From an uncultured Ruminococcus sp. (GTDB lineage Bacteria > Bacillota > Clostridia > Oscillospirales > Acutalibacteraceae), in contig CACWKD010000012.1 of NCBI GenBank assembly GCA_902761345.1, positions 1 to 32,684 on the forward strand: a stretch of 32,684 bases of DNA, in the 5' to 3' direction. This document shows, one piece after another, positions 4,759 through 24,113 of the stretch. Positions within the stretch are counted from its first letter, which is position 1. Every line of letters begins with the position of its first letter. Under the pieces are notes generated by a model. That model saw nothing but the letters and a program-made list of their open reading frames with translations, ran no database searches and was not told the origin of the DNA. The translations under genes and the position numbers were made by a program.

Positions 4759-4842
4759 AACAATCAACCTCCTATGTGTAATCATATAAATGTAACAGCA
4801 GCAAAAGCATAACAAATAAAAACAATTCGCCGCTAATAATTT

Positions 4843-4871
4843 ATTATATACATTTTTCAGTAATCAGTCAA
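4843..4871 (-). promoter_or_regulatory. Sigma-A promoter of the trpB2-proC run
   Basis: On the minus strand TTGACT (4871-4866) and TATAAT (4848-4843) are 17 bases apart. The predicted start, near 4836, leaves a leader of about 80 nt with no room for a T-box. Confidence 0.8.
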
Positions 4872-4984
4872 TGAAAACAGTAAATTTTGTAGACTTGCAC
4901 AATTTAAATCACTAAAATTTAGTACAAATAAAGAGCAGTATATGTTGGATTTGTTTTTTTTGCTAATCTGTATTCATAATTGCA

Positions 4985-5023
4985 AAAAGAAACAGCACGG
5001 AATAATAACTAACTCGTGCTGTT
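4985..5023 (-). terminator. Terminator after the zinc-ribbon gene
   Basis: AACAGCACG (4991-4999) and CGTGCTGTT (5015-5023) form a 9-bp stem. On the minus strand it is followed by TCTTTTTG. On the plus strand TTTTTATT follows, so it could stop both directions. It ends the transcript of the gene at 5041-6579. Confidence 0.75.
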
Positions 5024-5040
5024 TTTATTATTTAATTTGA

Positions 5041-6579
5041 TCAATCAAGTTTATGCAGTTCCGTCCAGCCGTAAGGTACGTCTGCCGCTGCCGACGCTCC
5101 CACTATCTGTGACGGGTCGTTAGTATTCTGGAAAACTCTGTCTGCCGTTACAGGCGCTTCGATATTTACGCCGTCTGTTCGTGTATATGTGTTTACACCC
5201 ATTATCATTTCGTGATTTCTTCTTACACTCCTGTCAAACCTTGCATTGTCACTTGCTATCCTTTGCTGCATAATACTATCGCGAGTATCATTTAATGAAC
5301 ATATAGCAGCCTGACTTCTTTCAAAGCTTGCCTGTTGATTTCTGAGCATATTCTGGTTTGCGTTAAATATTGCCTGCTGAGTTTGCATATTCTGTGAAAT
5401 TATCGCACACTGTACCTGCTCAATACGCGCATTAAGGCTGTCGCTTATTCTTACGGTATTTACAAAGCGGAAAAAGTCCTCTATCTCCTGCTCTGTCGGC
5501 ATTGTTGGTGACAGAAAACCCGAATAAGATATTATCTGCCATTCTGCTACTGCCGTTGAAAGTCCGTCTGCACGATGTCTGCCAAAAGGTGTATTTGGGT
5601 CTGTATCGATCTGTACATTTGTATTCATCTGCTGAGGCTGCTGAAAATTCGGAAAATATCCGCCGCCATATCCTCTGTTTACCATACCCATTATATTATT
5701 CAGAAGCTGCTGGTTTCTTGCCTGCATTTGGTTGCTCATAGGGCTGTATGTGCCGTACTCGGAACCCATTATCAGCGTATATAACAGCGCATACCTCTTT
5801 TCGCCGTTCACATCTGCTTCGTACAGTCTGCCGCCCTCTCCTGCGTACAAAGACTGTACCACAAACTGCATCATATCTCCGTGAGATAGTTTCTCCAACT
5901 GCTCACGCTTGCTTCTTAATCTGTTTCTGAGATTTTCTTCCTCGGCTCGGCTTATCGGAAATGTTCTGATTAGCCTTATTTTGTCCGTCTTTAACAGAGC
6001 AACAGCATTTGTATCAAGATATTCTTCAAACTCACGGAAACGGTTTTCCTCGGTCATATTCGATTTAGACACACTGTAAGGCTGAATGATCCTTTTGAAC
6101 ATCTCTTTACCGCTGTCATTTTTAGCATAAGCCCAAACAATTACCGGGAAATCAGCGTTGCCTGACTTTCCGTCTACTTTTACAGAAGTCTTATACCCGT
6201 TCGGTACCCAACCGTCGCAGCAGTGTGTATTTGCACTGTCCATAAACTTTGCGTTACTCTCTGCTTGCGGGTAAATACACTGTGTAACTGTTTTTGTTTC
6301 TTTCTTCTCCGGAGCATTCTTATTTTCAGCCGCTGTTTCTTTCGGCACTTCCTTCGGCTCTTCTTTCTGTACCTCTCTCCTGTTCCTTTGCGGTCTTGGC
6401 GGCAGTTTCATCTTAATAGGCGTATGTTCATCGGTTACAGTATGATTTTCTACTGTTTCTTTTGTTTCAAGAGTTACTTTTTCCGCGCAGAACGGACAAT
6501 ACTTTATCTGCTTGTCGTTTTCCGTTTCAAGGCGTATCCTGCTTTGACAGCTTTTACACATAATATCAAAAGATGACAT
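5041..6579 (-). CDS. Zinc-ribbon protein of unknown function
   Basis: A 512-aa soluble protein. Residues 8-31 hold a zinc ribbon (CKSC, then CPFC 16 residues later). Residues about 55-105 are a charged, proline-rich linker, and the rest is a large unknown region. Part of it is rich in Q, N, M and G (GYGGGYFPNFQQPQQMNTN), and a later stretch is Q/N-rich and probably helical (SQNMQTQQAIFNANQNMLRNQ). There is no signal peptide or membrane segment. The ATG at 6579 has AGGAGGTG five bases upstream, favouring it over an in-frame start at 6600. It follows the 76-aa gene by 24 bases. The function is unknown; the domain order suggests a scaffold or sensor, but that is a guess. Confidence 0.75.
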   Translation of the reverse strand: MSSFDIMCKSCQSRIRLETENDKQIKYCPFCAEKVTLETKETVENHTVTDEHTPIKMKLPPRPQRNRREVQKEEPKEVPKETAAENKNAPEKKETKTVTQCIYPQAESNAKFMDSANTHCCDGWVPNGYKTSVKVDGKSGNADFPVIVWAYAKNDSGKEMFKRIIQPYSVSKSNMTEENRFREFEEYLDTNAVALLKTDKIRLIRTFPISRAEEENLRNRLRSKREQLEKLSHGDMMQFVVQSLYAGEGGRLYEADVNGEKRYALLYTLIMGSEYGTYSPMSNQMQARNQQLLNNIMGMVNRGYGGGYFPNFQQPQQMNTNVQIDTDPNTPFGRHRADGLSTAVAEWQIISYSGFLSPTMPTEQEIEDFFRFVNTVRISDSLNARIEQVQCAIISQNMQTQQAIFNANQNMLRNQQASFERSQAAICSLNDTRDSIMQQRIASDNARFDRSVRRNHEMIMGVNTYTRTDGVNIEAPVTADRVFQNTNDPSQIVGASAAADVPYGWTELHKLD

Positions 6580-6603
6580 TTTAGCACCTCCTAAACTCAA
6601 CTG

Positions 6604-6834
6604 TTAGTTGAGAAATCTCCAAACTATGTATGGGTATTTTTTACCTGCGTCTTTGATATAACTCTCAATCAAAACAACAGACTCTTCTGTGAGATTTTCT
6701 CCGTCATGGTAATAACCGTACGAATCATAGTCATAAGGACTTATGTCGCCGTCTGCGAGCAGTTCGAGAAACTCGTCTATTGTAAAAACGTGCATAAGTA
6801 TATTCTCGTCCTGCACCTGTTTCAATGATTTCAT
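6604..6834 (-). CDS. Small acidic protein of unknown function
   Basis: A 76-aa acidic protein rich in aspartate and tyrosine (SPYDYDSYGYYHDGEN), with no signal peptide or membrane segment. It starts at an ATG with AGAGGTG upstream. It lies 17 bases after the lipoprotein gene and 24 bases before the zinc-ribbon gene, so it is the middle member of a three-gene unit. I do not recognise a family. Confidence 0.7.
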   Translation of the reverse strand: MKSLKQVQDENILMHVFTIDEFLELLADGDISPYDYDSYGYYHDGENLTEESVVLIESYIKDAGKKYPYIVWRFLN

Positions 6835-6851
6835 ATTTACACCTCTTATTA

Positions 6852-7667
6852 TCAGCTCAAAGTATATGAACCTGTCATTATACTTCCTGTTGAACCTCCT
6901 GCAAGAGTTGTTTCATCTCGCTCAACGTCCATTATTACATGGTCGCCCTCAAAGGTAAATATAAAACTCTTGAACTCAAATGAAATATCGTAACCATTGC
7001 CGTCTGTTACATCAAACACAATCAGTCTGTTCTGAGGATATGCCGCAGTATCAAGATTTATTGTATAAATATCCTCGACATAATCGGGCGAACCATACTG
7101 AAAAAAGCAATGGAGCTTAAAGCCGTCTTTTGTATCGAGGTAATATTTTATCTGTCCGTCATCAAGATAATACGCCATTCCGTCAAACGGTGCATACGGT
7201 GTTTCGTTATCTTCATCAGGCTCGGACGCAGGTTCTTCCGAGGGATAATCTTCCTGTGAAGAAGTTTCCTCACTTGATGTAGTTTCTTCTTTCGATGAAG
7301 TTTCTTCCTTTGACGAAGTTTCCTCCTTTGATGAATTTTCTTCTTTTGATGAAGTTTCTTCCTTTGATGATGTTTCCTTTTTTGATGAAGGTTTCTCCTT
7401 CGGAGGAGTTTTCTTCTTAGGTTTACTTTCATTCTCAGACGAGCTTTCATCGGCAGGAGAACTATTTTCATCAGATGAAGTACCGGGCAAGGATAAACTA
7501 TCCTTTATGTCATCGGGAATAGAACCTACCAAACTGCTTTGAGTTTGAGCAGGAGCAGAATCATCTGCATTTTTCGCAGGAGATGAACTTTCCGATACGT
7601 TCGCACTGCAGCCGCACAGCATAGCTGCTGTCAAAAGGGATACTATTATAACATTCTTTGCTTTCAT
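6852..7667 (-). CDS. Lipoprotein with an SSKEET-repeat stalk
   Basis: A 271-aa protein. Residues 1-20 form a lipoprotein signal peptide with lipobox LCGC (lipidated Cys at 20), so it should be anchored on the outer face of the membrane. Residues about 23-75 are Ser/Pro/Asp-rich. Residues about 84-140 are low-complexity KPKKK followed by some eight copies of SSKEET and variants, a charged spacer that could cross the cell wall. The last 115 residues form a compact domain that I do not recognise (PFDGMAYYLDDGQIKYYLD to the end). The start has GAGGAGG upstream. It is first in the unit with the 76-aa and zinc-ribbon genes. The repeat DNA (about 7255-7420) is a tandem array open to length change. 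Confidence 0.8.
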   Translation of the reverse strand: MKAKNVIIVSLLTAAMLCGCSANVSESSSPAKNADDSAPAQTQSSLVGSIPDDIKDSLSLPGTSSDENSSPADESSSENESKPKKKTPPKEKPSSKKETSSKEETSSKEENSSKEETSSKEETSSKEETTSSEETSSQEDYPSEEPASEPDEDNETPYAPFDGMAYYLDDGQIKYYLDTKDGFKLHCFFQYGSPDYVEDIYTINLDTAAYPQNRLIVFDVTDGNGYDISFEFKSFIFTFEGDHVIMDVERDETTLAGGSTGSIMTGSYTLS

Positions 7668-7698
7668 GGTGTTCCTCCTCGTATTTTATTTTTAATTA

Positions 7699-7727
7699 AT
7701 TATAGCAGATAACAGAATTTTTTTCAA
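7699..7727 (-). promoter_or_regulatory. Sigma-A promoter of the lipoprotein unit
   Basis: On the minus strand TTGAAA (7727-7722) and TATAAT (7704-7699) are 17 bases apart, with TG in the extended -10 position. It lies just upstream of the lipoprotein start at 7667. Confidence 0.8.
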
Positions 7728-7748
7728 CAGACTTATTGTTATTTTCAA

Positions 7749-7781
7749 TAAAAAAACTCTCTGTCGTTAATGACAAAGAGT
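7749..7781 (-). terminator. Minus-strand hairpin with U-tract
   Basis: The 5-bp plus 4-bp stem with a 6-nt loop is followed on the minus strand by seven T. No protein gene ends upstream of it on that strand, which is why I link it to the candidate small RNA. Confidence 0.6.
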
Positions 7782-7840
7782 AAATTTAACTGTTACTTGA
7801 AATTTCCAATACCAACAATCTTAAAGCAGCACGATCTATT
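7749..7840 (-). ncRNA. Candidate small RNA of about 90 nt
   Basis: On the minus strand a promoter-like pair, TTGACT (7875-7870), 17 bases, TATAAA (7852-7847), has an extended -10 TG. It would start RNA near 7840. A hairpin (7781-7756) with stems ACTCT/AGAGT and TGTC/GACA and one mismatch is followed by seven T (7756-7750) and would end it. No start codon in between opens a reading frame of note (the first ATG gives Met-Gln-Glu-stop). The RNA lies between the divergent lipoprotein and 99-aa genes. It matches no RNA family I know. Confidence 0.45.
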
Positions 7841-7869
7841 CTTGCATTTATAACAAAATTCATTTATTC

Positions 7870-7931
7870 AGTCAATATATATTTGTGAATATTTTTTGTT
7901 ATAAAATATTGACAGGGTGAATAATTTATGG
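7870..7931. other. Intergenic stretch 7668-7991, between divergent units
   Basis: The 324-base gap holds, from left to right, the lipoprotein promoter (7699-7727), the hairpin and body of the candidate small RNA (7749-7840), the small RNA promoter (7847-7875) and the plus-strand promoter of the 99-aa gene (7909-7937). I see nothing else in it. Confidence 0.5.
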
Positions 7932-7937
7932 TATAAT
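7909..7937 (+). promoter_or_regulatory. Perfect consensus promoter of the 99-aa gene
   Basis: TTGACA (7909-7914) and TATAAT (7932-7937) are both perfect and 17 bases apart, predicting strong constitutive transcription from about 7944 unless repressed. Confidence 0.85.
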
Positions 7938-7991
7938 TGATTTAGGTCAAGTGTCGATTTTAGCTATTTTTCAAGTAAGGAGAAAATTATA

Positions 7992-8291
7992 ATGAAGATG
8001 AATTATTATTATATAAACGCATACAGCACTACTAAACAGGGTAAAAGAGAAGAAATTTATCAAAAATATTACCCTGAATGGCATATCAGAGAATTAGGCA
8101 AAGGCAATGGCAATTGGATTTTAACTAAGCAGAGTAATGTAATTGTAAACGGAATAAGATGTCGTGAATTTGTCCTCGATCATTACGGCAAACAAAAGCT
8201 TACAGAAAATTTATCAAACAAATTTCGCCAAGACCTTGAGAACGGCAACATACAATTACAAGACATAGATAATTACTACAATAATTTATAA
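7992..8291 (+). CDS. 99-aa orphan protein of unknown function
   Basis: A soluble 99-aa protein, rich in Tyr, Asn and Gln, with no signal peptide, membrane segment or known motif. It begins MKMNYYYINAYSTTKQGKRE and ends NIQLQDIDNYYNNL. The ATG has AAGGAG 8 bases upstream. It is insulated, with a perfect sigma-A promoter in front and a strong terminator behind, and the neighbours on both sides are on the other strand. Its AT-rich codon use differs from the nearby metabolic genes, which hints at later acquisition. I cannot assign a function. Confidence 0.75.
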   Translation: MKMNYYYINAYSTTKQGKREEIYQKYYPEWHIRELGKGNGNWILTKQSNVIVNGIRCREFVLDHYGKQKLTENLSNKFRQDLENGNIQLQDIDNYYNNL

Positions 8292-8340
8292 TAAATAATA
8301 TAATAAATATAATATAAAATATTGACACTTAAACCTAACG

Positions 8341-8392
8341 GCATCGATTACTGCTCGAACATATTTCGAATGTAATCGATGCTGTTTTTTTT
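8341..8392 (+). terminator. Strong terminator after the 99-aa gene
   Basis: GCATCGATTAC (8341-8351) pairs perfectly with GTAATCGATGC (8372-8382). An inner TCGAA/TTCGA stem lies inside it, and TGTTTTTTTT follows. Confidence 0.85.
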
Positions 8393-8401
8393 ACTAAAAA
8401 A

Positions 8402-9331
8402 TCACTCAAAAAACAACTGTGTTGAAAAATACCTTTCCGCTGTATCGGGCAAAATCGTTACAACAGTCTTACCCTTACCCAGCTTTTTTGCAAGCTTTAT
8501 CGCCGCTGCTACATTTGAACCGCTCGATATACCGCACATCAAGCCCTCCTCACGGGCAAGTCGCTTTGATGTTTCGAGTGCTTCCTCGTCTGTTACAACA
8601 TATATATCATCATATATTTCTCTGTTGAGAATATCGGGAATAATACCGTCGCCTATACCCATTTGTATATGAGTTCCGATCGTACCTCCCTTTAGTATAG
8701 CGGCATTCTCAGGCTCTATCGCCCATATCTCTATATCGGGATACTGTGCTTTAAGCGCCTCGCCTATTCCGGTTATTGTGCCGCCCGTACCTATTCCGCT
8801 GCAAAATCCGTGAATAGGTTTTGCAGCCTGTGCCATTATTTCAAGTGCTGTATGACGTTTATGCGCAAGAGTATTATTAATGTTCGCAAACTGCTGCGGT
8901 ACAAACACCTTTGGATCTTGCTCTTTCATTCTAAGCGCCGTCTGTAAACATTCCTCTATGCACTTTCCTATATCGCCTGCGTCGTGTATCAGCATTACCT
9001 GCGCACCGTAATGTCTTACAAGCTTTCTTCTTTCCTCGCTTACCGAATCAGGCATTATAATTATCGTTCTGTAACCCTTTACAGCTCCTACAAGCGCAAG
9101 CCCTATTCCCTGATTACCGCTTGTAGGCTCTACGATAACTGTATCCTTATTAATAAGACCCTCTTTCTCAGCCTGTTCTATCATATTCAAGGCCGTGCGT
9201 GTTTTTATCGAACCGCCCACGTTTAGTGCCTCTACCTTTACAAGTATCTCTGCACTATCAGGCTCACAGATCCTGTTAAGCCTTATCATGGGGGTATTTC
9301 CGACAGCGTCCAATATATTATCGTATATCAT
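8402..9331 (-). CDS. cysK: Cysteine synthase (O-acetylserine sulfhydrylase) family
   Basis: A 309-aa fold-type II PLP enzyme, the usual CysK length. It opens with NILDAVGNTPMIRL. The PLP lysine lies in NVGGSIKTRTA, the substrate loop in EPTSGNQGIGLA, and the phosphate-binding loop in GIGTGGTITGIGE. Expected role: O-acetylserine plus sulfide to cysteine. The lysine is followed by TR where classical CysK has DR, and the loop reads SGNQG where classical CysK has SGNTG. These point to a divergent clostridial branch, so the acceptor or donor may differ. The ATG at 9331 has GGAGG upstream; a frame start at 9346 would overlap that site. It has its own promoter and no cysE next to it. Confidence 0.85.
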   Translation of the reverse strand: MIYDNILDAVGNTPMIRLNRICEPDSAEILVKVEALNVGGSIKTRTALNMIEQAEKEGLINKDTVIVEPTSGNQGIGLALVGAVKGYRTIIIMPDSVSEERRKLVRHYGAQVMLIHDAGDIGKCIEECLQTALRMKEQDPKVFVPQQFANINNTLAHKRHTALEIMAQAAKPIHGFCSGIGTGGTITGIGEALKAQYPDIEIWAIEPENAAILKGGTIGTHIQMGIGDGIIPDILNREIYDDIYVVTDEEALETSKRLAREEGLMCGISSGSNVAAAIKLAKKLGKGKTVVTILPDTAERYFSTQLFFE

Positions 9332-9363
9332 AATACAATCCTCCAAAAAAATCCGATAAAACC

Positions 9364-9392
9364 ATATTACATAATAAATTCAATTTTGTCAA
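9364..9392 (-). promoter_or_regulatory. Promoter of the cysteine synthase gene
   Basis: On the minus strand a perfect TTGACA (9392-9387) and TAATAT (9369-9364) are 17 bases apart. The -35 begins right after the U-tract of the preceding operon's terminator. Confidence 0.75.
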
Positions 9393-9393
9393 G

Positions 9394-9435
9394 AAAAACA
9401 TAACGCTCTGAAATTTTTCATCTCAGAGCGTTATG
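9394..9435 (-). terminator. Terminator of the aryl-acid operon
   Basis: CATAACGCTCTGA (9399-9411) and TCAGAGCGTTATG (9423-9435) form a perfect 13-bp stem with an 11-nt loop. On the minus strand TTTTTCTT follows. It ends the six-gene run 22 bases after its last stop codon. Confidence 0.85.
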
Positions 9436-9457
9436 AATTATTTATGATCCTGCGGAT

Positions 9458-9889
9458 TTACATTTCGATAACATCTTTCTCTTCAAGGAGCTTTACGCCG
9501 TTCTCTACCAGTATTTTCTCAGCAGCATCATTATCAGCTACTCGAAGAACTACCGATGCATTCTTCTTTGATACTGTAATGAACGCATACATATACTCAA
9601 TATTGATATTATGTCTTGCAAGAATATTTACTACCTTTGCAAGCGAACCCGGAACATCAGGTATAGATACGCCTACTACCTGTGTTATCGATACAAAACA
9701 GCCTGAGGATTCGAGGGCTGTCTTTGCTTTCTCGGGGTCTGTAACAATTAATCTGAATATACCGAAATCCTGTGTATCTGCAACGCTCATCGCACGAATG
9801 TCTATGTTAGCATTTGCGATAGAGTCTGTAATAGTTACAAGCTTGCCCTCTTTGTTTTCAACAAATATTGATAACTGCTTTACTGCCAT
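9458..9889 (-). CDS. Tandem ACT-domain protein
   Basis: A 143-aa protein made of two ACT domains, residues about 3-66 (QLSIFVENKEGKLVTITDSI) and 70-138 (VGVSIPDVPGSLAKVVNIL), and nothing else. ACT domains bind amino acids and pass the signal to a partner. Small tandem-ACT proteins often sit beside iorAB and paaK, where they are thought to sense aromatic or branched-chain amino acids. Here it is last in the operon, 18 bases after the first arylacetate-CoA ligase. A role as an allosteric subunit or sensor for the ligase or IorAB is inference; no DNA-binding domain is present. Confidence 0.85.
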   Translation of the reverse strand: MAVKQLSIFVENKEGKLVTITDSIANANIDIRAMSVADTQDFGIFRLIVTDPEKAKTALESSGCFVSITQVVGVSIPDVPGSLAKVVNILARHNINIEYMYAFITVSKKNASVVLRVADNDAAEKILVENGVKLLEEKDVIEM

Positions 9890-9907
9890 GACATAATCCT
9901 CCTTTTA

Positions 9908-11227
9908 TTAAACATTAATTCCAAGACGCTTACGTTTGTCAATTACTCTGACAGCTTTACCCTCTGAACGCTCTATACTCTTTGGCGGTACGAGATGTAT
10001 CTTCGGGTTAATGCCAAGCATTGTCTTCATAGCGCCCTGAAGCTCTTTCTCTTTGTTTGTAATACCCTTTGGTGTATCTGAGAAATCCTCTGACTTCATC
10101 TCAACATTTATATCAAATGTATCTGTGTTGTTTACTCTGTCAACTATGATCTGATAGTTCGGCGCATAGCCGTTATTGAGAAGAACTGCCTCTATCTGGC
10201 TCGGGAATACGTTTACACCTCTGATGATCATCATATCGTCAGAACGTCCGAGCGGCTTTGTCATCTTTACAAAAGTACGTCCGCAGGAGCATTTCTCACG
10301 AGAAAGTACGCAAATATCTCTTGTACGGTAACGAAGAAGCGGGAACGCCTCTTTGTCAAGAGATGTAAACACAAGCTCGCCCTTTGTACCAAGCGGAAGT
10401 ACCTCGCCCGTATCAGGGTCTATGATCTCTGCTATAAAGTGATCCTCGTTTATGTGCATACCTGTCTGCTCCTCGCACTCAAATGCAACGCCCGGACCGC
10501 TAAGCTCTGTCAAACCGTAAATATCGTACGCTTTTATACCGAGAGATTTCTCAATATCCCTTCTCATTTCCTCTGTCCAAGGCTCTGCTCCGAAAATACC
10601 TGCTTTGAGCTTGTTATCCTCGGGCTTGTAGCCCTTTTCTTTGAGTGTTTCTCCGATATAAGCCGCATAAGACGGAGTACAGCAGAGAATTGTGGATTCA
10701 AGATCCATCATAAACTGTATCTGTCTGTCGGTGTTGCCGCTTGACATAGGCAGCGTCAAACTTCCTACCTTGTGCGAACCGCCGTGAAGTCCCGCACCGC
10801 CTGTAAACAGTCCGTAACCGTAGCATACCTGACACACATCTTCATTTGTACAGCCTGCCGCAACTAATGCTCTTGCACAGCAGTCCTCCCACAAATCAAC
10901 ATCATGCTGTGTGTAGAATGCTACTACTCTCTTGCCTGTTGTACCCGATGTAGACTGAATACGCACACAGTTTTTCATATCGGTTGCAAGAAGTCCGTAC
11001 GGATACGCCTCACGCAAATCGTCCTTTTTCAAAAACGGTAACTTGTGAAGATCGTCTATACCGTGAATATCCTCGGGTTTTACACCCTTTTCGTCCATAA
11101 GATGACGGTAATACTCTACGTTATCGTAAACATACCTAACCTGCTTAACAAGCTTTTCGTCCTGAACTCTCTTGATCCAATCGGCTGACATTGTTTCAAT
11201 TTCAGGCTGAAAATATTTCCTCTGCAT
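9908..11227 (-). CDS. paaK: Arylacetate (phenylacetate)-CoA ligase, copy 1
   Basis: An AMP-forming ligase of 439 aa that interconverts an aryl-acetate, ATP and CoA with aryl-acetyl-CoA. Family motifs in order are the P-loop QSTSGTTGKRVVAFYT, YGLTELSGPG, YRTRDIC, a likely metal-binding Cys cluster (CVLSREKCSCGRTF), RGVNVFPSQIE, and the C-terminal SEGKAVRV with the catalytic lysine. The best start is the ATG at 11227, with AAAGGTG 8 bases upstream; a GTG at 11236 lies too close. It follows iorB by 27 bases. It is clearly not a recent duplicate of the ligase at 13603, so the two may differ in substrate (phenyl-, indole- or hydroxyphenyl-acetate). Confidence 0.93.
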   Translation of the reverse strand: MQRKYFQPEIETMSADWIKRVQDEKLVKQVRYVYDNVEYYRHLMDEKGVKPEDIHGIDDLHKLPFLKKDDLREAYPYGLLATDMKNCVRIQSTSGTTGKRVVAFYTQHDVDLWEDCCARALVAAGCTNEDVCQVCYGYGLFTGGAGLHGGSHKVGSLTLPMSSGNTDRQIQFMMDLESTILCCTPSYAAYIGETLKEKGYKPEDNKLKAGIFGAEPWTEEMRRDIEKSLGIKAYDIYGLTELSGPGVAFECEEQTGMHINEDHFIAEIIDPDTGEVLPLGTKGELVFTSLDKEAFPLLRYRTRDICVLSREKCSCGRTFVKMTKPLGRSDDMMIIRGVNVFPSQIEAVLLNNGYAPNYQIIVDRVNNTDTFDINVEMKSEDFSDTPKGITNKEKELQGAMKTMLGINPKIHLVPPKSIERSEGKAVRVIDKRKRLGINV

Positions 11228-11254
11228 TGTCATCACACCTTTGTCTTTTATAGT

Positions 11255-11827
11255 TTAATTGTTATAGCCTAAGCTGAACGCTTTCTTATTGATCTCGATA
11301 AAATTCGGCTTTACACACTTTTCTATTGCAGCTTCCCACTTCTCGTACGGAATATCGAAATACTTCGCAAGTCTGCCCATAAGCACGATATTGCAGGCTT
11401 TAGCAGAACCTGCTTGTGAAGCAAGTGACAAAGCGTCGATAGCGTCAACGTGAACGCCCTTGTTTGTCATCTCGTCAAGTATGCCCTCGGGGTATGTTTC
11501 ACTGCCGATTATAACAGGCATAGGGTCTATCTGCTGTGTGTTTACAATAACCGTGCCGTCTTTTTTGAGATCCTTAATGTATCTTGCCGCTTCAATTTTC
11601 TCAAAGCTTACTATAAAGTCTGCTTCGCCCTCCTCTATTATGGGGGAATAAACCTTATCGCCGAATTTTACATAAGTTACAACAGAACCGCCTCTTTGGC
11701 TCATTCCGTGAACTTCGCTTACCTTTACGTCATAGCCCTCATCTACAAGCAGTCTTCCAAGAAGCTTTGAAGCAAGCAGAGAGCCTTGACCGCCTACACC
11801 TACGATCATAATGTTTTTTGATGCCAT
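11255..11827 (-). CDS. iorB: Indolepyruvate:ferredoxin oxidoreductase, beta subunit
   Basis: A 190-aa gamma-type domain of the 2-oxoacid:ferredoxin oxidoreductases. Marks are the N-terminal nucleotide-like loop MIVGVGGQGSLLASKLL, the family signature SEVHGMSQRGGSV and FIVSFEKIEAARY. With IorA it converts aryl-pyruvates (indole-, phenyl-, hydroxyphenyl-pyruvate) to aryl-acetyl-CoA, reducing ferredoxin, or the reverse. Its ATG overlaps the last base of the iorA stop (TAATG), a sign of tight translational coupling that fits a fixed subunit ratio. Confidence 0.94.
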   Translation of the reverse strand: MASKNIMIVGVGGQGSLLASKLLGRLLVDEGYDVKVSEVHGMSQRGGSVVTYVKFGDKVYSPIIEEGEADFIVSFEKIEAARYIKDLKKDGTVIVNTQQIDPMPVIIGSETYPEGILDEMTNKGVHVDAIDALSLASQAGSAKACNIVLMGRLAKYFDIPYEKWEAAIEKCVKPNFIEINKKAFSLGYNN

Positions 11828-13569
11828 TATTCCTCTACCTCACTTTCAAATGCGTCAAACGGACACAATCCTGCACATACTCCGCAGCCTATGCAAAGAG
11901 TATTGTCTATTACTGCGTGCTTATCTCTGAACGATATTGCAGGACAACCAAACTTCATACATCTCTTACAGCCTCTGCACTTATCGGGATTAACTCTAAG
12001 CGGCTTTTTCGGCTTAACATACTTCAAAAGTACGCAAGGTCTGCGTGAAATAATAACAGACGGCTCGTTCTTTGCAAGCTCCTCTTTTACTACTCTCTCA
12101 CACTCTTCAAGGTTATACGGATCTACTACTCTTACAGAATTTATTCCGACAGATCTGCAAAGGCTTTCAAGATCGACCTTGCCTGCCGGATCACCCTTTA
12201 TATTATAGCCTGTTGTCGGGTTCTGCTGATGTCCTGTCATACCTGTAATGGAGTTATCGAGAATAATAACAGTCGAGTTTGACTGGTTATACGCTATGTT
12301 AATAAGTCCTGTTACACCTGAGTGCATAAACGTCGAATCGCCTATAACACAAACTGTCTTGCTCTCTGTTTCACCGTTGCCCGCTTTATTGTAGCCGTGA
12401 AGTCCCGATACAGACGCACCCATACAAAGCGTCATATCAAGTGCGTTGAGCGGCGGCATTGAGCCGAGCGTATAACAGCCTATATCGCCAAGTACGGTGA
12501 TTTTATTCTTTGCAAGAACATAATACATACCTCTGTGAGGACAGCCTGCGCACATCATTGGCGGTCTTACGGGAACATTTGTATCAAGACAGACATTATC
12601 CTTAGCTTTCATATCAAATGCCTGCGCAATAGTTTTCTGTGAAAACTCCCCTATAATAGAGAATTTCTCCTTGCCGACAACATCAACACCGATATTCTTA
12701 CAGTGTGTTTCGATTATCGGGTCAAGCTCTTCTATAACATAAACCTTGCTTACTTTTGCGGCAAACTCTTTTATAAGATTTACGGGAAGCGGATTTACCA
12801 TACCAAGCTTGAGTATCGCTGCGCCGTCGCCGAAAACTTCCTTTACATACTCGTATGATGTTGATGAAGTAATGATACCGAAATTATACTCGCCGCTGCC
12901 ATTCTCAACTCTGTTGAGCGGTGATGTTTCTGCATATTCTGTAAGCTTTCTTGTTCTTTCCTCTACAAACGGGTGACGTGCAATAGCATTAGCAGGAGCC
13001 ATAATATATTTCTTCGGGTTCTTTACATACTCCTTTTCATGCTCAACTCTTTCTCCCTTTTCAACAATACTCTGCGAATGCGCAACTCTTGTGCACATCT
13101 TTATAAATACGGGAGTATCGAACTGCTCCGAGATCTCAAATGCAAGCTTTGCAAAATCAAGCGCCTCCTGAGAATCGGACGGTTCAAGCATCGGTACTTT
13201 TGACGCAATAGCATAGTGACGTGAATCCTGCTCGTTCTGTGATGAATGCATTCCCGGATCGTCTGCCACACAAATAACCATACCTGCATTAACGCCTGTA
13301 TAAGACATTGTAAACAGAGGGTCTGCCGCTACGTTCAATCCAACGTGTTTCATACAGCAGGCTGAACGCTTGCCACGGAGCGATGCGCCAAACGCTGTTT
13401 CTGTCGCTACCTTTTCATTGGGAGCCCACTCGCTGTAAACATCACTGTACTTTGCGAACTCCTCTGTTATCTCGGTACTCGGTGTACCGGGATAGCTTGA
13501 TATAACGGAGCAGCCTGCCTCATAAAGCCCGCGGGCAAGGGCTGCGTTGCCGATCATAAGTTCTTTCAT
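11827..13569 (-). CDS. iorA: Indolepyruvate:ferredoxin oxidoreductase, alpha subunit
   Basis: A 580-aa subunit. The N-terminal pyrimidine-binding half starts MIGNAALARGLYEAGC and SYPGTPSTEI. The TPP half carries MCAGCPHRG, GDIGCYTLG and the TPP/Mg site GDSTFMHSGVTGLINIAYN. The end (about 530-575) is a two-cluster ferredoxin domain with CRGCKRCMKFGC and CIGCGVCAGLC. It decarboxylates aryl-pyruvates to aryl-acetyl-CoA and passes electrons to ferredoxin. It lies between the two arylacetate-CoA ligases and overlaps iorB by one base. All expected cysteines are present. Confidence 0.95.
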   Translation of the reverse strand: MKELMIGNAALARGLYEAGCSVISSYPGTPSTEITEEFAKYSDVYSEWAPNEKVATETAFGASLRGKRSACCMKHVGLNVAADPLFTMSYTGVNAGMVICVADDPGMHSSQNEQDSRHYAIASKVPMLEPSDSQEALDFAKLAFEISEQFDTPVFIKMCTRVAHSQSIVEKGERVEHEKEYVKNPKKYIMAPANAIARHPFVEERTRKLTEYAETSPLNRVENGSGEYNFGIITSSTSYEYVKEVFGDGAAILKLGMVNPLPVNLIKEFAAKVSKVYVIEELDPIIETHCKNIGVDVVGKEKFSIIGEFSQKTIAQAFDMKAKDNVCLDTNVPVRPPMMCAGCPHRGMYYVLAKNKITVLGDIGCYTLGSMPPLNALDMTLCMGASVSGLHGYNKAGNGETESKTVCVIGDSTFMHSGVTGLINIAYNQSNSTVIILDNSITGMTGHQQNPTTGYNIKGDPAGKVDLESLCRSVGINSVRVVDPYNLEECERVVKEELAKNEPSVIISRRPCVLLKYVKPKKPLRVNPDKCRGCKRCMKFGCPAISFRDKHAVIDNTLCIGCGVCAGLCPFDAFESEVEE

Positions 13570-13602
13570 TATTAAACCACCTTTTTATATACCTTTTTTA
13601 TA

Positions 13603-14904
13603 TCACTGATTTCTAAGATCTACTATTCTCTTTGCCTTACCCTGGAAACGCTCGATAGTTTTCGGCGCTACAAGTGTTACCTTAGTTCTAAGCCCGAGAA
13701 TAGACTGCATTTTAGCCTCGATATGCTTTTTAAGATCGCTCAATCTCTGATAATTCTCAAGCAGCTCAGCATTGTCAAGCTCTACCTTGATCTCAAGATT
13801 ATCTCTGAAATGCTCTCTTGTAATAACCAGCATATAGTGCGGCGCTATATCATTAATATTAATGAGGATATTCTCTATCTGTGTCGGGAATACATTTACG
13901 CCCTTGATAATCAGCATATCGTCTGTTCTTCCCATAGTTTTAGCCATTCTTGCGTGTGTTCTTCCGCACGGACACGGCTCGTATGTTATCTTTGTAATAT
14001 CCTTTGTTCTGTATCTGAGAACAGGCATACCTCTCCTTGTAAGTGTTGTAATAACAAGCTCGCCTACTTCGCCTTCGGGAAGTCTTTTGCCTGTTTCGGT
14101 ATCGATTATCTCCGGCAGGAAGTGATCCTCTGCAAAGTGCATACCGTTTCTTGCCTCGCAGTCGCCCGATACACCGGGGCCGCCCAACTCTGTCATACCG
14201 TAGTTATCCGATACACGGATATTGAAGTTTGACTCTATCTGAGATCTCATCGCAGGCGTACACGGCTCCGAACCGAGAATACCTAAACGCAGTGAGTAAT
14301 CGGACAGCGGATAGCCTGCCTCTTTAACACTTTCGGACAAATAAAGTGCATACGAGGGAGTTGCAACAAGTCCCGTAACACCGTAATCACGCATCATCAT
14401 AAGCTGCTTTTCTGTGTTGCCCGACGACGCAGGAATAACCGTTGCGCCGAGGTTTTCAAGTCCGTAATGCAGACCTAAAGCGCCTGTAAAAAGTCCGTAG
14501 CCAAAGCTTACCTGAATAATATCGTTCGATGTAACTCCGCCTGCAACTGCAACACGAGATACGCAGTCTGCCCAAAGCTTGATGTCGTCTTTTGTGTAAA
14601 CGCCTACTGTCGGCTTGCCTGTTGTACCCGATGAAGCGTGGATACGAACTATATCCTTCATAGGAGCAGCCATAAGTCCGAACGGGTAGTTATCTCTGAA
14701 ATCGTCCTTTGTAGTAAACGGAATGTACTCTATATCGGAGAGGGTTTTTATCTTAGAACCGTCGCCTATGCCGCATTCCGTAAGACGCTTATTATACAGA
14801 GGTACGTTGTCGTAGCAATACTTTACAGTCTGCTTTAATCTTTCAAGCTGGATCTCTTCAATTTTCTTTCTTGGGAGTGTTTCAATATCCTTCTGAAACA
14901 TCAT
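13603..14904 (-). CDS. paaK: Arylacetate (phenylacetate)-CoA ligase, copy 2
   Basis: A 433-aa AMP-forming ligase with the same motif order as copy 1. These are HASSGTTGKPTVGVYT, YGMTELGGPG, YRTKDIT, a Cys/His metal site (EPCPCGRTH), KGVNVFPTQIE and the terminal GKAKRIVDLR. The start is taken at the ATG at 14904, with AAGGA 10 bases upstream; the ATG at 14913 lies against the ribosome site. It follows the symporter by about 60 bases and precedes iorA by 33. The residues differing from copy 1 around the P-loop (HASSGTTGKPT against QSTSGTTGKRV) suggest a different aryl-acid preference, but the sequence alone does not show which. Confidence 0.93.
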   Translation of the reverse strand: MMFQKDIETLPRKKIEEIQLERLKQTVKYCYDNVPLYNKRLTECGIGDGSKIKTLSDIEYIPFTTKDDFRDNYPFGLMAAPMKDIVRIHASSGTTGKPTVGVYTKDDIKLWADCVSRVAVAGGVTSNDIIQVSFGYGLFTGALGLHYGLENLGATVIPASSGNTEKQLMMMRDYGVTGLVATPSYALYLSESVKEAGYPLSDYSLRLGILGSEPCTPAMRSQIESNFNIRVSDNYGMTELGGPGVSGDCEARNGMHFAEDHFLPEIIDTETGKRLPEGEVGELVITTLTRRGMPVLRYRTKDITKITYEPCPCGRTHARMAKTMGRTDDMLIIKGVNVFPTQIENILININDIAPHYMLVITREHFRDNLEIKVELDNAELLENYQRLSDLKKHIEAKMQSILGLRTKVTLVAPKTIERFQGKAKRIVDLRNQ

Positions 14905-14964
14905 TTCTATCATTTCCTTCTTTTATTTATTATTATATCCGATACAAACATTTGTACCTAATGA

Positions 14965-16572
14965 TTAAGCATTTTCAGTTGTTTCGTCCTCTGCAATAGA
15001 CTTCTTTGACGAAACTGTTACTTTCTTGTTATAACAAGAGAATATCTTATCTGTTCTGTCACTGTCCTTTGCAGGTGCAATAAGTGTTATCAGCGGTGTA
15101 ACAGCTATTCCAAGCAGCATGGCAAGCATACCTGCGTTAATGGGGGATTTGAAATATTCAAGTACGGGACTTGAAAACTTAACACCTGTAAGGTTGCATA
15201 CAAACGATGCGATCGAAATTCCTATTCCCATAACAAAGTTTACCCATACTGCAGCTTTCGGAACTTTCTTCATATAAAGTCCGTACATAAACGGCGCAAG
15301 GAATGATCCTGCAAGAGCGCCCCACGAAACACCCATCATCTGTGAAATAAAGAGTACGGGCGAGCTTGCCTGAATTATAGCGATTACAGCCGAAACTGCT
15401 ATAAAGAAAACAATGAAAATTCTCATACAAAGAACCTTTTTCTTTTCAGTCATTGCTTTTTTCTTACAGAACACAGGGTCAATAAAGTCAATCGTAAGCA
15501 CCGAACTTGATGTAAGCACCAGACTGGAAAGCGTACTCATAGAAGCGGAGAGTACAAGTATTACAACAATACCGATAATAACGGGAGAAAGATTTTCAAG
15601 CATTGTCGGGATAACGCTGTCGTAACCTCCCTCAGGCTTTACACCGTCTGCGCTCATTGTTCCGAACAATCTTCCGAAACCGCCGAGAAAATAACAGCCG
15701 CCTGCTACGATGATCGCAAATATTGTAGATACTATTGTACCCGTGCTGATCGACTTCTCGGATTTAATTGCATAGAATTTCTGTACCATCTGAGGAAGTC
15801 CCCATGTACCCAAAGACGTGAGTATTACAACTCCGATAAGTCCGAATATATCGGGGCCTAAGAATGATGTAAAAGCTCCCTTAAATTCTGTACCCGAAGC
15901 TGTTATAACGCTCTCCTGAGATAAAAGCGCTATCGTTTCTGTAAGTCCGCCGTGTACGTTCATTACAGCGGCAATTACTGCGACTATACCGCCAAGCATA
16001 ATGATACCCTGTATAAAATCGTTTATAGCCGTTGCCATATAGCCGCCAAGCACAACATATACGCCCGTAAGCACTGCCATTCCTATTACACAGTAAGTAT
16101 AGGGTATTCCGAATGCCATTTCAAAAAGTCTTGAAAGTCCGTTGTACAGTGACGCTGTATACGGAATAAGGAATATGAATATAATTACCGACGCTGTGAT
16201 TTTAAGCGACTGTGAATTATATCTTTTGCAGAAAAAGTCCGGCATTGTTGCCGAATCAAGGTGCTGCGTCATTACTCGTGTTCTTCTTCCGAGGATATTC
16301 CATGCAAGGAGCGAACCGATAAAAGCATTACCCAGTCCTATCCAAGTTGACGCAAGTCCAAATCTCCAGCCGAATTGTCCTGCATATCCTACAAAGATAA
16401 CGGCGGAAAAGTATGATGTACCAAAAGCAAACGCTGTAAGCCACGGACCTACCGAACGATTTCCGAGTACAAATCCGTTTACGTCTGTTGCCTGCTTGCG
16501 GCAGTATATTCCCACCCCTATCATTATAGCAAAAAAGACGACCAGAAACAAGAGTTTTATTAACATATCCAT
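14965..16572 (-). CDS. Sodium:solute symporter family transporter
   Basis: A 535-aa transporter with about 13 hydrophobic segments and the SSS-family pattern (GNRSVGPWLTAFAFGTSYFS near residue 37, then GGYMATAINDFIQG near 175). It should import a small organic molecule with sodium across the cell membrane. The substrate is not readable, but it is the first gene of the aryl-acid operon. It also shares the transcript with two arylacetate-CoA ligases, so an aryl-acetate or aromatic keto/amino acid is the natural candidate. Proline or pantothenate transport would be the default family reading. GGAGGA lies 8 bases upstream of the ATG. The last 30 residues are hydrophilic and cytoplasmic. Confidence 0.85.
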   Translation of the reverse strand: MDMLIKLLFLVVFFAIMIGVGIYCRKQATDVNGFVLGNRSVGPWLTAFAFGTSYFSAVIFVGYAGQFGWRFGLASTWIGLGNAFIGSLLAWNILGRRTRVMTQHLDSATMPDFFCKRYNSQSLKITASVIIFIFLIPYTASLYNGLSRLFEMAFGIPYTYCVIGMAVLTGVYVVLGGYMATAINDFIQGIIMLGGIVAVIAAVMNVHGGLTETIALLSQESVITASGTEFKGAFTSFLGPDIFGLIGVVILTSLGTWGLPQMVQKFYAIKSEKSISTGTIVSTIFAIIVAGGCYFLGGFGRLFGTMSADGVKPEGGYDSVIPTMLENLSPVIIGIVVILVLSASMSTLSSLVLTSSSVLTIDFIDPVFCKKKAMTEKKKVLCMRIFIVFFIAVSAVIAIIQASSPVLFISQMMGVSWGALAGSFLAPFMYGLYMKKVPKAAVWVNFVMGIGISIASFVCNLTGVKFSSPVLEYFKSPINAGMLAMLLGIAVTPLITLIAPAKDSDRTDKIFSCYNKKVTVSSKKSIAEDETTENA

Positions 16573-16610
16573 TTTATGTTTCCTCCAATTAATTCATTTA
16601 TGGAAATATT

Positions 16611-16640
16611 TTATCAATAATTTGTGCTATATTCTAAAAT
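16611..16640 (+). promoter_or_regulatory. Candidate promoter of the amidohydrolase gene
   Basis: TTATCA (16611-16616) and TAAAAT (16635-16640) are 18 bases apart. The left arm of the dyad ATAATTTGTG falls in the spacer. The minus-strand promoter of the symporter operon could not be placed with confidence. Confidence 0.4.
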
Positions 16641-16677
16641 GCCGCATAAAACGGCAGAAAGCTTTAACACAAATTAT
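16617..16677. promoter_or_regulatory. Nested dyad between divergent promoters, candidate operator
   Basis: ATAATTTGTG (16617-16626) and CACAAATTAT (16668-16677) are a perfect 10-bp inverted repeat. Centred within one base of it is TGCCG (16640-16644) and CGGCA (16652-16656). It lies between the symporter operon and the amidohydrolase, which are transcribed apart, so a regulator binding here could control both. No regulator gene adjoins it. Confidence 0.5.
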
Positions 16678-16703
16678 ATTTACATGATTGAGAGGGACGA
16701 AAC

Positions 16704-17534
16704 ATGGTAATTGATTTTCATACACATATTTACCCCGACAAAATCGCCGAGAAAACTATCAGCACCCTTATGACATCTGCACCCGATGTTAAAGTCTATA
16801 CAAAAGGTACGCTTAACGCGCTGCGTGACAGTATGAAAAAGTCGGGCATTGATAAATCGGTAGTTCTTCCCGTAGCAACACGCAAAGGTCAATTTGACAC
16901 TATTAACCGCTTTGCACTTGACATTAACAATACTTACAGCGACCTTGTATCGTTCGGCGGAATACACCCCGATGATGACGATATAGAGAACAAACTGCTT
17001 TACCTCAAAGAAAACGGTTTTAAAGGCGTCAAAATACACCCTGATTACACAGGAACATTTATCGACGATGAAAGATACATAAAGATAATCACCGAATGCG
17101 TAAAGCTCGGACTTACTGTTGTTACTCATGCGGGAGTTGATCCTGCTTTTGATGTGATACACTGTCCGCCCGAAAAAGCAAGAGCCGTACTCGACAGGAT
17201 CTCAGCCGAAACAAAAGCCGAAAAGCCGTTTCTGGTATTTGCTCATCTTGGCGGCATATACTGTCACAAAGAGGTTTTAAAATATCTTGCAGGAACAAAC
17301 TGTTACATAGATATAAGCTGTTCATTCGCCTCGCTCGGCAGTTACTGTGATACAACCGACGAGGAAGTTGTTGATATGATAAAAATGCATGGTGCAGACA
17401 AGGTGCTTTTCGCAACAGACAGCCCTTGGAATGATCAGACGGCTTATCTTGAAAAACTCAAATCCCTTGACGGTCTGTCCGACACAGAAAAAGATATGAT
17501 ACTCTATCAGAATGCCGAAAGACTGCTTTCATAA
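16704..17534 (+). CDS. Amidohydrolase (TIM-barrel metal-dependent hydrolase)
   Basis: A 276-aa amidohydrolase-2 type protein. The metal-binding HxH is near the N-terminus (VIDFHTHIYP). It continues with GGIHPDDDD, GVKIHPDYTG, VVTHAGVD (a further metal His), FAHLGG, and ATDSPWNDQ with the metal-binding Asp. The family includes hydrolases and decarboxylases acting on aromatic and carboxylic rings. The substrate is not readable here. The gene is alone on its strand, divergent from the aryl-acid operon across a shared dyad, which suggests a linked role, perhaps on an aryl-acid product. GAGAGGGA lies upstream of the ATG. A TatD-like nuclease is less likely given the overall motif pattern. Confidence 0.82.
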   Translation: MVIDFHTHIYPDKIAEKTISTLMTSAPDVKVYTKGTLNALRDSMKKSGIDKSVVLPVATRKGQFDTINRFALDINNTYSDLVSFGGIHPDDDDIENKLLYLKENGFKGVKIHPDYTGTFIDDERYIKIITECVKLGLTVVTHAGVDPAFDVIHCPPEKARAVLDRISAETKAEKPFLVFAHLGGIYCHKEVLKYLAGTNCYIDISCSFASLGSYCDTTDEEVVDMIKMHGADKVLFATDSPWNDQTAYLEKLKSLDGLSDTEKDMILYQNAERLLS

Positions 17535-17892: not shown

Positions 17893-18219
17893 CTAAAACA
17901 CAAATTGTACAAGCAACATATAGCAGACTGTTCCACCCGCTACCGAAAGCAGCATATTTTTCCGCCATAAGTGAAGAATTATCACAACTGCAATTGCTAT
18001 AAACTCGGGCAGTCCGTGAGATCCGCCTAATATAGATACATCTTTCATACAATAAACAACCAGCATACCAAAAATCGAGGCAGGAAGTGCCTTTCCGAGA
18101 TAGTCTATATATTTCGGAACAGGCTTATCCGATTTAAAAACTAAAAATGGCAAAAATCTCGTTGCCATAGTTCCTATCACACATAATCCAATCGTTATTA
18201 TTTGTTGAGCAACAGTCAT
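17893..18219 (-). CDS. azlD: AzlD-family branched-chain amino-acid exporter subunit
   Basis: A 108-aa membrane protein with about four helices and the family pattern of small AzlD proteins ([43 protein letters not shown]). AzlD pairs with AzlC to export branched-chain amino acids across the cell membrane. Its ATG overlaps the azlC stop by four bases (ATGA), so the two are translated together. Length is typical. Confidence 0.88.
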
Positions 18220-18929
18220 TGTTTATCCTCACTATCCTTTCTCTCTATCGGCTTACGCAAAAGAGTAAGAATTAATGTTATGCAGATCATAGTCGGTATC
18301 ATAAAATTCTCCGCACCAAAAACAATAAGACACAGTACCGATGCTGATAAACCAACACAAGAAGAAATATGTTGTTTTTCCTTTAGCCACTGATCGAGAA
18401 AAATAACTACAAACATTGCTGTCATTACAAAAGACAATCCATATGTGTTAAACTTAATAAGTCCTCCGATTATTCCTCCGAGTGTTGAACCCGTAACCCA
18501 GTATACTCGATTTAACAGTGTTACAAAGAACATAAACCAGCCTTTATCTATATCATCGGGGATTTCTGTCGAATAGTTTATAGAAAAGCTTTCATCGCAC
18601 ATTCCAAATATAAGATACGGCTTTTTCCAACCTGTATCCTTGTATTTTTCCAGCATAGAGATACCATAAAACAAATGACGCGCCTGTATCATCAGTGCGG
18701 CTAACAGAGTTTGCAAAGGTGCAAATGTGCTTAAAAGCATAGAAGCGGCAACAAACTCAAGAGATCCTCCGAATATGGTCATACTCATAAGCATAGGATA
18801 GACAAAAGAAAAGCCGTTTACATTCATCAAAACTCCGTAGCTAAATCCTAAAAACCAAAATCCCGCAAAAATTGGTATTGTTTTTGGAAATGCAAATAGT
18901 AAAGCTTTAACAATACGATTTTTTCTCAT
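18216..18929 (-). CDS. azlC: AzlC-family branched-chain amino-acid exporter subunit
   Basis: A 237-aa membrane protein with about seven hydrophobic segments. The AzlC pattern is seen in [22 protein letters not shown] near the start, [31 protein letters not shown] and GMCDESFS. With AzlD it forms an LIV-E type exporter. The ATG has GAGGGGAAG upstream. It follows the enolase terminator and probably has its own promoter, which I could not place. Confidence 0.9.
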
Positions 18930-22887: not shown

Positions 22888-22910
22888 TTTCAACAATCCC
22901 CTCTTTTTAT

Positions 22911-23839: not shown

Positions 23840-23882
23840 AATAACAAACTCCTTTTGATAATTTGATTTCTGCAATAAAAAG

Positions 23883-23947: not shown

Positions 23948-24113
23948 AATTAAGATAGCACTCCGCATCTGCGACAGTAGAACGGATATTGTCCGCACTC
24001 CCAGAAAACCTTTCGCCTCGGTTTCTTCGGCAAATACTCCTTTCATTTGTGCCATAGCTTTGCGAAAGCCCTCGTCACACATTACTGATAGTATTCGCAC
24101 CTCTATCATAATT
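23948..24113 (-). promoter_or_regulatory. Lysine riboswitch aptamer (L box)
   Basis: On the minus strand the conserved L-box elements appear in order. They are AGAGGTGCGAATACTATC, then AGTA, then AAAGGAGTATTTGCCGAAG, then CTGGGAGTGCGGACA. The closing stem pairs AATTATGATAG (24113-24103) with CTATCTTAATT (23958-23948), 10 of 11 matched. It is followed by the terminator at 23883-23906 and then dapA. Lysine binding should favour the terminator. GTTCTAC inside the aptamer can also pair with GTAGAAC downstream of it, a possible antiterminator piece. Confidence 0.92.

Follow-up and report, generated by a model that had tools for sequence, protein, structure and literature searches.

The window analysed here is the whole of one contig (G000:C12; CACWKD010000012.1, 32,684 nucleotides) from the genome of an uncultured Ruminococcus sp. 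(GCA_902761345.1; 99 contigs, 89% complete), and the system in question is an operon of six co-directional genes on its minus strand (9458-16572). These genes encode a sodium:solute symporter (SSS), two PaaK-like aryl-acid:coenzyme A (CoA) ligases, the alpha and beta subunits of indolepyruvate:ferredoxin oxidoreductase (IOR), IorA and IorB, and a tandem-ACT protein, with intergenic gaps (in gene order) of 51, 33, -1 (an overlap), 18 and 18 nucleotides (nt). An earlier note, made from the letters of this DNA alone, had proposed a tightly spaced six-gene operon closed by a terminator, and the gene calls, gaps, family assignments and a 16-pair stem bear this out. The features of the operon are as follows:

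14965-16572, minus strand: SSS symporter, first gene (PF00474, 176.9 bits)
13603-14913, minus strand: PaaK-like AMP-forming aryl-acid:CoA ligase 1, in the slot upstream of iorA (PF00501 and PF14535)
11827-13569, minus strand: IorA, indolepyruvate(arylpyruvate):ferredoxin oxidoreductase alpha subunit (TIGR03336, 717.1 bits; cut-off 650.9)
11255-11827, minus strand: IorB, beta subunit, with a one-base overlap with iorA (NF005325, 280.1 bits; cut-off 230)
9908-11236, minus strand: PaaK-like AMP-forming aryl-acid:CoA ligase 2 (PF00501 and PF14535)
9458-9889, minus strand: tandem-ACT protein (ACT_8; PF19571, 104 bits)
9435-9399, minus strand: intrinsic terminator at the operon end (16-pair stem, then the T run TTTTTCTT)

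The IorA and IorB of the window are an indolepyruvate:ferredoxin oxidoreductase of predicted activity, both curated profile cut-offs being passed; under the older IOR_beta model (TIGR03334), IorB falls below the cut-off (185.1 vs 205.8). Matches of IorA to PF02775, PF01855 and Fer4 families include its thiamine pyrophosphate domain, two 4Fe-4S cysteine motifs lie near its C-terminus, and a single copy was found in the own genome. The ligases, described in the earlier note as unlike, are indeed only 46% identical to each other. Both carry PF14535 and PF00501 but miss the cut-off of the NCBIfam PaaK equivalog TIGR02155 (508.3 and 490.1 vs 646.3), and are therefore called PaaK-like rather than PaaK. 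The nearest solved structures of ligase 2 are the phenylacetate-CoA ligases 4r1l and 2y27, and the tandem-ACT protein has a solved relative in 2f06. A scan for terminators gave 13 terminator-like sites vs 6.9 expected in shuffles, of which the site at 9435-9399 has the longest stem by far; cysK (8402-9346) follows the operon behind a promoter-like site. No kinase with phosphate acyltransferase, and no ADP-forming ligase, adjoins the oxidoreductase in the window.

Relatives were drawn from two sets, namely 80 named loci whose IorA is closest to that of the window (titles mostly of gut and rumen metagenome-assembled genomes) and 150 genomes taken evenly from the window's own family, from which 113 IorA places were fetched. 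The linkage of IOR genes with AMP-forming arylacetate-CoA ligase genes, which marks the aryl-acid pathway, is found in the window and in 69 of the 80 named loci. Of the 80 stretches, 59 contain a PaaK2-type ligase, 47 an ACT pair, 35 a FadD-like AMP ligase and 26 an SSS gene; contig ends cut many of these stretches, making the co-occurrence counts lower bounds. In the family sample, IorA scores above the cut-off in 97 of the 150 genomes, and the 113 places divide into 94 of the window's IorA lineage (lineage A) and 19 of a second lineage (lineage B), the IorA of which is about 36-41% identical to that of the window. Lineage A gene runs (n=94) hold an AMP-forming ligase in 75 cases, ACT in 62, SSS in 30, both PaaK types in 26 and a FadD-like AMP ligase, which replaces ligase 1, in 21. 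The corresponding counts for lineage B (n=19) are 14 for the AMP-forming ligase and zero for both ACT and SSS. A comparison of gene order across relatives had been suggested in the earlier note; recognised genes stand in exactly the window's order in 7/80 named loci and 11/94 lineage A loci of the family sample (ignoring, in the latter, unrecognised open reading frames, ORFs), a recurrence that argues against a chance gene set. The symporter in eight of these 11 loci belongs to a more remote type, with 35-41% identity to that of the window.

T-box leaders turn genes on when the cognate tRNA is uncharged. Such leaders (RF00230) precede these same genes in relatives, with aromatic specifiers at 13 of 13 loci:

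Lineage A, UAC (Tyr): L061 (127 bits), L070 (107), L174 (125), L219 (105)
Lineage A, UUC (Phe): L028 (114 bits), L052 (108), L178 (107), L039 (102.5)
Lineage B, UGG (Trp): L132 (95.8 bits), L173 (93.7), L118 (83.6), L122 (81.4), L145 (73.1)

The leaders of lineage A (four loci of each specifier) score 102.5 to 127.3 bits against a gathering score of 93. In lineage B, L132 and L173 exceed the gathering score and L118, L122 and L145 are below it, as is likewise the leader of a genuine trp operon in the window's family (78.5 bits). The reading of specifiers was calibrated on leaders from nine family genomes, which gave UUC for pheS (3/3 scanned), UAC for tyrS (4/4 scanned), UGC for cysS (one) and UGG for trpG-D-C-FB-A (one). 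The UGG specifier of L132 was read by distance. In L039, two additional bases precede the codon, which was placed by its spacing from the GAG behind it; this reading is the least secure among the eight of lineage A. On the family loci, eight leaders were seen at 113 places vs 0.08 expected (300 nt upstream, right strand), and the match between leader and operon is thus not due to chance. The expectation derives from 93 T-boxes in about 19.2 Mb of nine genomes, seven of which were picked for having such a leader, which would if anything raise the expected number. A strict T-box pattern gave zero matches over the 113 loci because the leaders vary; a looser pattern in tandem with Rfam found them, and the T-box counts are lower bounds. 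Pattern hits that lay within coding sequence or were not directed at the operon (L055, L071, L216, one of the two of L145, L110 on the plus strand, L120, L159, L161, L162 and L199) were not scored as operon T-boxes, and the short and longer stretches of one place were counted once (L085/L118, L089/L122, L098/L132, L110/L145).

The specifiers follow the phylogeny of the enzymes. In an IorA tree of 125 leaves (ORFs outside 540-700 amino acids excluded), the five UGG loci all group in a clade of 19 leaves with support 1.0; the other clade, of 106 leaves, takes in the window and all eight UAC/UUC loci. In the ligase tree, 13 lineage B ligases group together with support 1.0; the upstream-slot ligases (43 leaves, including ligase 1 of the window) form a clade of their own (support 0.998), and the downstream-slot PaaK2 ligases (65 leaves, including ligase 2) a third (support 0.92). 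In the window's family, indoleacetate and Trp seem to be served by an IOR lineage of their own, with UGG T-boxes. Since this Trp-type lineage was not found in the own genome, with its one IorA, the window's operon is more likely to serve Phe and Tyr than Trp. The earlier note had named Phe, Tyr and Trp as products; the first two are supported by the UAC and UUC leaders of lineage A, while Trp probably falls to the sister lineage.

The positions of the leaders further distinguish the two ligases. In L028, L052 and L178, the gene immediately behind a Phe T-box encodes a ligase with 79-81% identity to ligase 2 of the window, whereas Tyr T-boxes head the operon before a FadD-like ligase (L061, L174, L219) or the symporter (L070). 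Because of these positions, phenylacetate is the probable substrate of ligase 2, and 4-hydroxyphenylacetate that of the upstream ligase, ligase 1 in the window. In lineage B, one locus (L173:7863-10063) carries tandem T-boxes, UGG and then UUC-like (97.6 bits), before a run of a major facilitator superfamily (MFS) gene, iorAB, ligase and TrpB2, and dual control by Trp and Phe is possible there. An MFS gene of the oxalate/lactate type lies immediately upstream in four lineage B loci (two of them profile-scanned), and an aminotransferase gene (PF12897) lies downstream in L145. Apart from T-boxes, a YerC/TrpR-related gene stands directly before iorA in 8/80 named loci (L018, L019, L020, L026, L039, L058, L063, L076) and elsewhere nearby in a ninth; it matches TIGR02531 in 3/3 and PF01371 in 2/2 cases scanned, counts on the side of biosynthesis, and might repress the operon in response to Trp or aryl-acids.

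Taken together, the comparison makes it likely that the operon assimilates aryl-acids, with arylacetate uptake leading to Phe and Tyr in the biosynthetic direction. The SSS symporter would import aryl-acetates made by other microbes, and the two AMP-forming ligases would convert them, at the expense of ATP, to aryl-acetyl-CoA. IorAB would then join aryl-acetyl-CoA and CO2, using reduced ferredoxin, to give aryl-pyruvate, as the chemistry of its family allows, and an aminotransferase encoded elsewhere would complete Phe and Tyr; the tandem-ACT protein is probably an amino-acid sensor. In relatives, shortage of Tyr or Phe is predicted from the leaders to induce the same genes, and shortage of Trp the sister IOR-ligase module. 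Biosynthesis is favoured because Phe, Tyr and Trp T-boxes stand on the same genes in relatives and AMP-forming ligases are the usual partners; control by a T-box, being switched on by uncharged tRNA, suits supply and not breakdown. For the window's own organism, we infer the direction from this regulation and these partners. The aryl-acid chemistry and carboxylating direction proposed in the earlier note are thereby supported, while its statement that both directions were equally allowed gives way to a preference for biosynthesis.

Several observations weigh against this assimilatory role. The window's own operon has no T-box at the gathering score, by pattern scan or at an E value of 0.1 or better (4600-17000), and none of the six T-boxes that the own genome holds elsewhere is on it. 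T-box control of this operon is hence rejected, the Rfam and pattern scans being empty, and no operon T-box was seen in 105/113 family loci or 75/80 named loci. The region upstream of the symporter aligns poorly between the window and its relatives and yields no nameable shared element. Further, chorismate synthase, prephenate dehydratase (PDT) and prephenate dehydrogenase are all encoded in the own genome, so that its classical branch makes the route dispensable for Phe and Tyr. Among 114 family genomes at least 90% complete, those with IorA comprise 71 with and 6 without PDT, and those lacking IorA 25 with and 12 without (p 0.0017). The IOR as a plain substitute for a lost Phe/Tyr pathway is therefore rejected, as IorA goes with the presence of PDT, and auxotrophs are often without both. 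A link between IorA and loss of TrpA is rejected as well (IorA present, 29 with and 48 without TrpA; IorA absent, 11 with and 26 without; p 0.53). In these tables, TrpA was counted only above the Pfam cut-off (50/51 matches), IorA at E 1e-45 or better, thus including pieces at contig edges, and the absence of PDT in G129, G140, G144 and G146 was inferred by subtraction. Two more points on the same side, a PaaI-like (hydroxyphenylacetyl-CoA-thioesterase-like) gene after iorB in 4/80 named loci, which fits release of the acid, and the finding of Zhu et al. (cited in PMC13285125) that the IOR of Bacteroides thetaiotaomicron takes part in the conversion of Phe to phenylacetate, are taken up below with the oxidative direction.

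Another reading concerns the symporter. It might serve another metabolite and sit in the operon by accident, since SSS is missing from the gene run in 64/94 lineage A loci and the protein reaches no NCBIfam substrate-level cut-off, its best scores (proline and pantothenate symporters) being far below cut-off. The recurrence of two SSS types (identity to the symporter of the window about 60-85% and 35-41%, respectively) at the same place in relatives nevertheless makes an accident unlikely.

A rather improbable alternative is that the operon runs oxidatively, with IorAB turning amino-acid-derived aryl-pyruvates into aryl-acetyl-CoA and gaining reduced ferredoxin, the ligases reversed or the CoA ester hydrolysed, and the symporter serving amino acids or acid export. 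Besides the thioesterase-like gene and the Bacteroides IOR tied to phenylacetate formation, the reversible and fermentative IOR of Pyrococcus is in its favour, and many IOR-type enzymes of Peptostreptococcales lie near a phosphate acyltransferase and kinase or an ADP-forming ligase (PMC13285125). The ligases here, however, are of AMP-forming families, said to favour CoA-ester synthesis (PMC13285125), and the aromatic T-boxes of relatives would activate degradation exactly during amino-acid shortage. Of the 144 unrecognised ORFs inside gene runs, 94 were profile-scanned, and among the families listed (25 of 109) none with two or more members was an acyl kinase, a phosphate acyltransferase or an ADP-forming ligase; single cases may be hidden in the remainder. 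A bidirectional redox or CO2 valve, set by the ferredoxin state and with Phe/Tyr supply as part of its job, is very improbable: the classical branch in the own genome (supply need not be the sole benefit) and the commonness of IorA in the family, also alongside PDT, speak for it, but it leaves unexplained both the match of tRNA specifier to IorA lineage and the operons in genomes without the classical pathway.

Such genomes lend weight to the assimilatory role. IorA is kept without PDT and TrpA in six genomes at least 90% complete (G004, G022, G058, G074, G088, G144); indole-3-glycerol phosphate synthase (IGPS) was found in 0/6 of them, chorismate synthase was not found in G058 and G144, and prephenate dehydrogenase was not found in G004, G022, G058, G074 and G144. 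The operon of G058 (L174) reads T-box(Tyr), FadD-like ligase, SSS, IorA, IorB, ligase 2 and ACT, and that of G074 (100% complete; L189) has the window's order save for one insert, with an IorA 82% identical. The insert is a M48 peptidase-like ORF between the symporter and ligase 1 (L189:9103-10743).

In gut and rumen Firmicutes of the window's family, there may accordingly be two tRNA-sensed modules of reductive carboxylation, a proposal that we hold at about even chances. One, for Phe and Tyr, would comprise lineage A with Phe/Tyr T-boxes, an SSS importer, two ligases and an ACT sensor; the other, for Trp, lineage B with Trp T-boxes and, at some loci, an MFS transporter, an aminotransferase or TrpB2. 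Certain species free of the classical pathways would then depend on arylacetates and indoleacetate made by others, and aryl-acids would be nutrients exchanged between microbes as well as waste. Whether the IOR of gut anaerobes makes phenylacetate or amino acids is disputed in print (PMC13285125), and the T-box specifiers provide an answer at the level of sequence for the window's lineage, assigning IOR lineages to Phe/Tyr or Trp. Should the proposal hold, these bacteria would be a sink for the phenylacetate, hydroxyphenylacetate and indoleacetate that enter the blood of the host, and calling their IOR a phenylacetate-producing gene would give it the wrong sign.

Two neighbouring genes might also bear on aromatic metabolism:

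3388-4815, minus strand: stand-alone TrpB2, outside the operon (NF009057, 685 bits; cut-off 366)
16704-17534, plus strand: amidohydrolase, divergent from the operon (PF04909, 91.5 bits)

The stand-alone TrpB2 had been pointed out in the earlier note, and the profile confirms it; a salvage route from indole to Trp is plausible. TrpA and IGPS profiles gave no match in the own genome (controls 14/14), the absence not being proof in a genome 89% complete, and a DNA search of the own genome for the trp operon, without a positive control of its own, was empty; a same-genus genome has the trp operon. The own genome also carries a UGG T-box (G000:C57:8871-9111; L245) before a gene for a TrpX-like substrate-binding transporter protein (235 bits, cut-off 390). 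As a separate observation, at L162:11147-12847 a T-box of UGG pattern, below the Rfam gathering score, precedes a TrpB2 gene that lies upstream of a lineage B IOR operon and whose product shares 84% identity with the TrpB2 of the window. The amidohydrolase has a BLAST relative within the stretch in 26/80 named loci, and a role in releasing aryl-acids from conjugates is a guess.

Elsewhere in the window, a lysine riboswitch (23948-24113, minus strand, 91.4 bits) lies upstream of a probable dapA (22949-23875) and lysA (21592-22896), both named by eye. Two minus-strand membrane ORFs (17893-18929) resemble, by eye, an AzlD/AzlC-type branched-chain amino-acid exporter pair, and an ORF with tandem PPERPDGSSDTNT repeats (31109-32683) runs off the window end.

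The literature searched, from which subscription papers were outside scope, holds no recognisable report of T-boxes on IOR or arylacetate-ligase genes. The available main text of a 2008 T-box survey (PMC2494555; supplements outside scope) has zero mentions of ferredoxin, indole, phenylacet, oxidoreductase or paaK. Provisionally, the tRNA-sensed Phe/Tyr and Trp IOR modules are new, while the aryl-acid pathway itself is already known in methanogens and as a rumen activity. In Methanococcus maripaludis, aryl-acids are substrates of a second pathway to aromatic amino acids through IOR (PMC4162585, PMC3462420), and an anabolic IOR is described for Methanobacterium (PMC13285125). The window resembles the M. 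maripaludis pathway in that IOR-dependent synthesis of aromatic amino acids would stand beside the classical pathway; it differs from the methanogens in being bacterial, in gathering a symporter, two ligases and an ACT protein in one operon, and in the T-box control of its relatives. In rumen cultures, Phe can also come from phenylacetate and phenylpyruvate (PMC7356843). The overall conversion is the same as that proposed here; the available text of that report names no genes, and the window offers a candidate gene set for making phenylalanine from phenylacetate in the rumen. In Bacteroides, the IOR adjoins an AMP-forming arylacetate-CoA ligase, and a biosynthetic role has been proposed, as in methanogens (Jiang et al. 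2026, PMC13285125). The window shares this pairing; the passages available on the Bacteroides pair make no mention of a second ligase, symporter, ACT protein or T-box, of which the window has the first three and its relatives the T-boxes. The oxidative direction in gut acetogens is covered by PMC13290082. These acetogens and the HpdDEFG-HpdJ-HpdK system of Clostridium scatologenes share with the window the chemistry of 2-oxoacid:ferredoxin oxidoreductases on aryl-pyruvates (PMC13285125, PMC13290082). The oxidative pathways are energy-yielding, and that of C. scatologenes couples a VOR-related enzyme to a kinase and a phosphate transferase, whereas the window has AMP-forming ligases.

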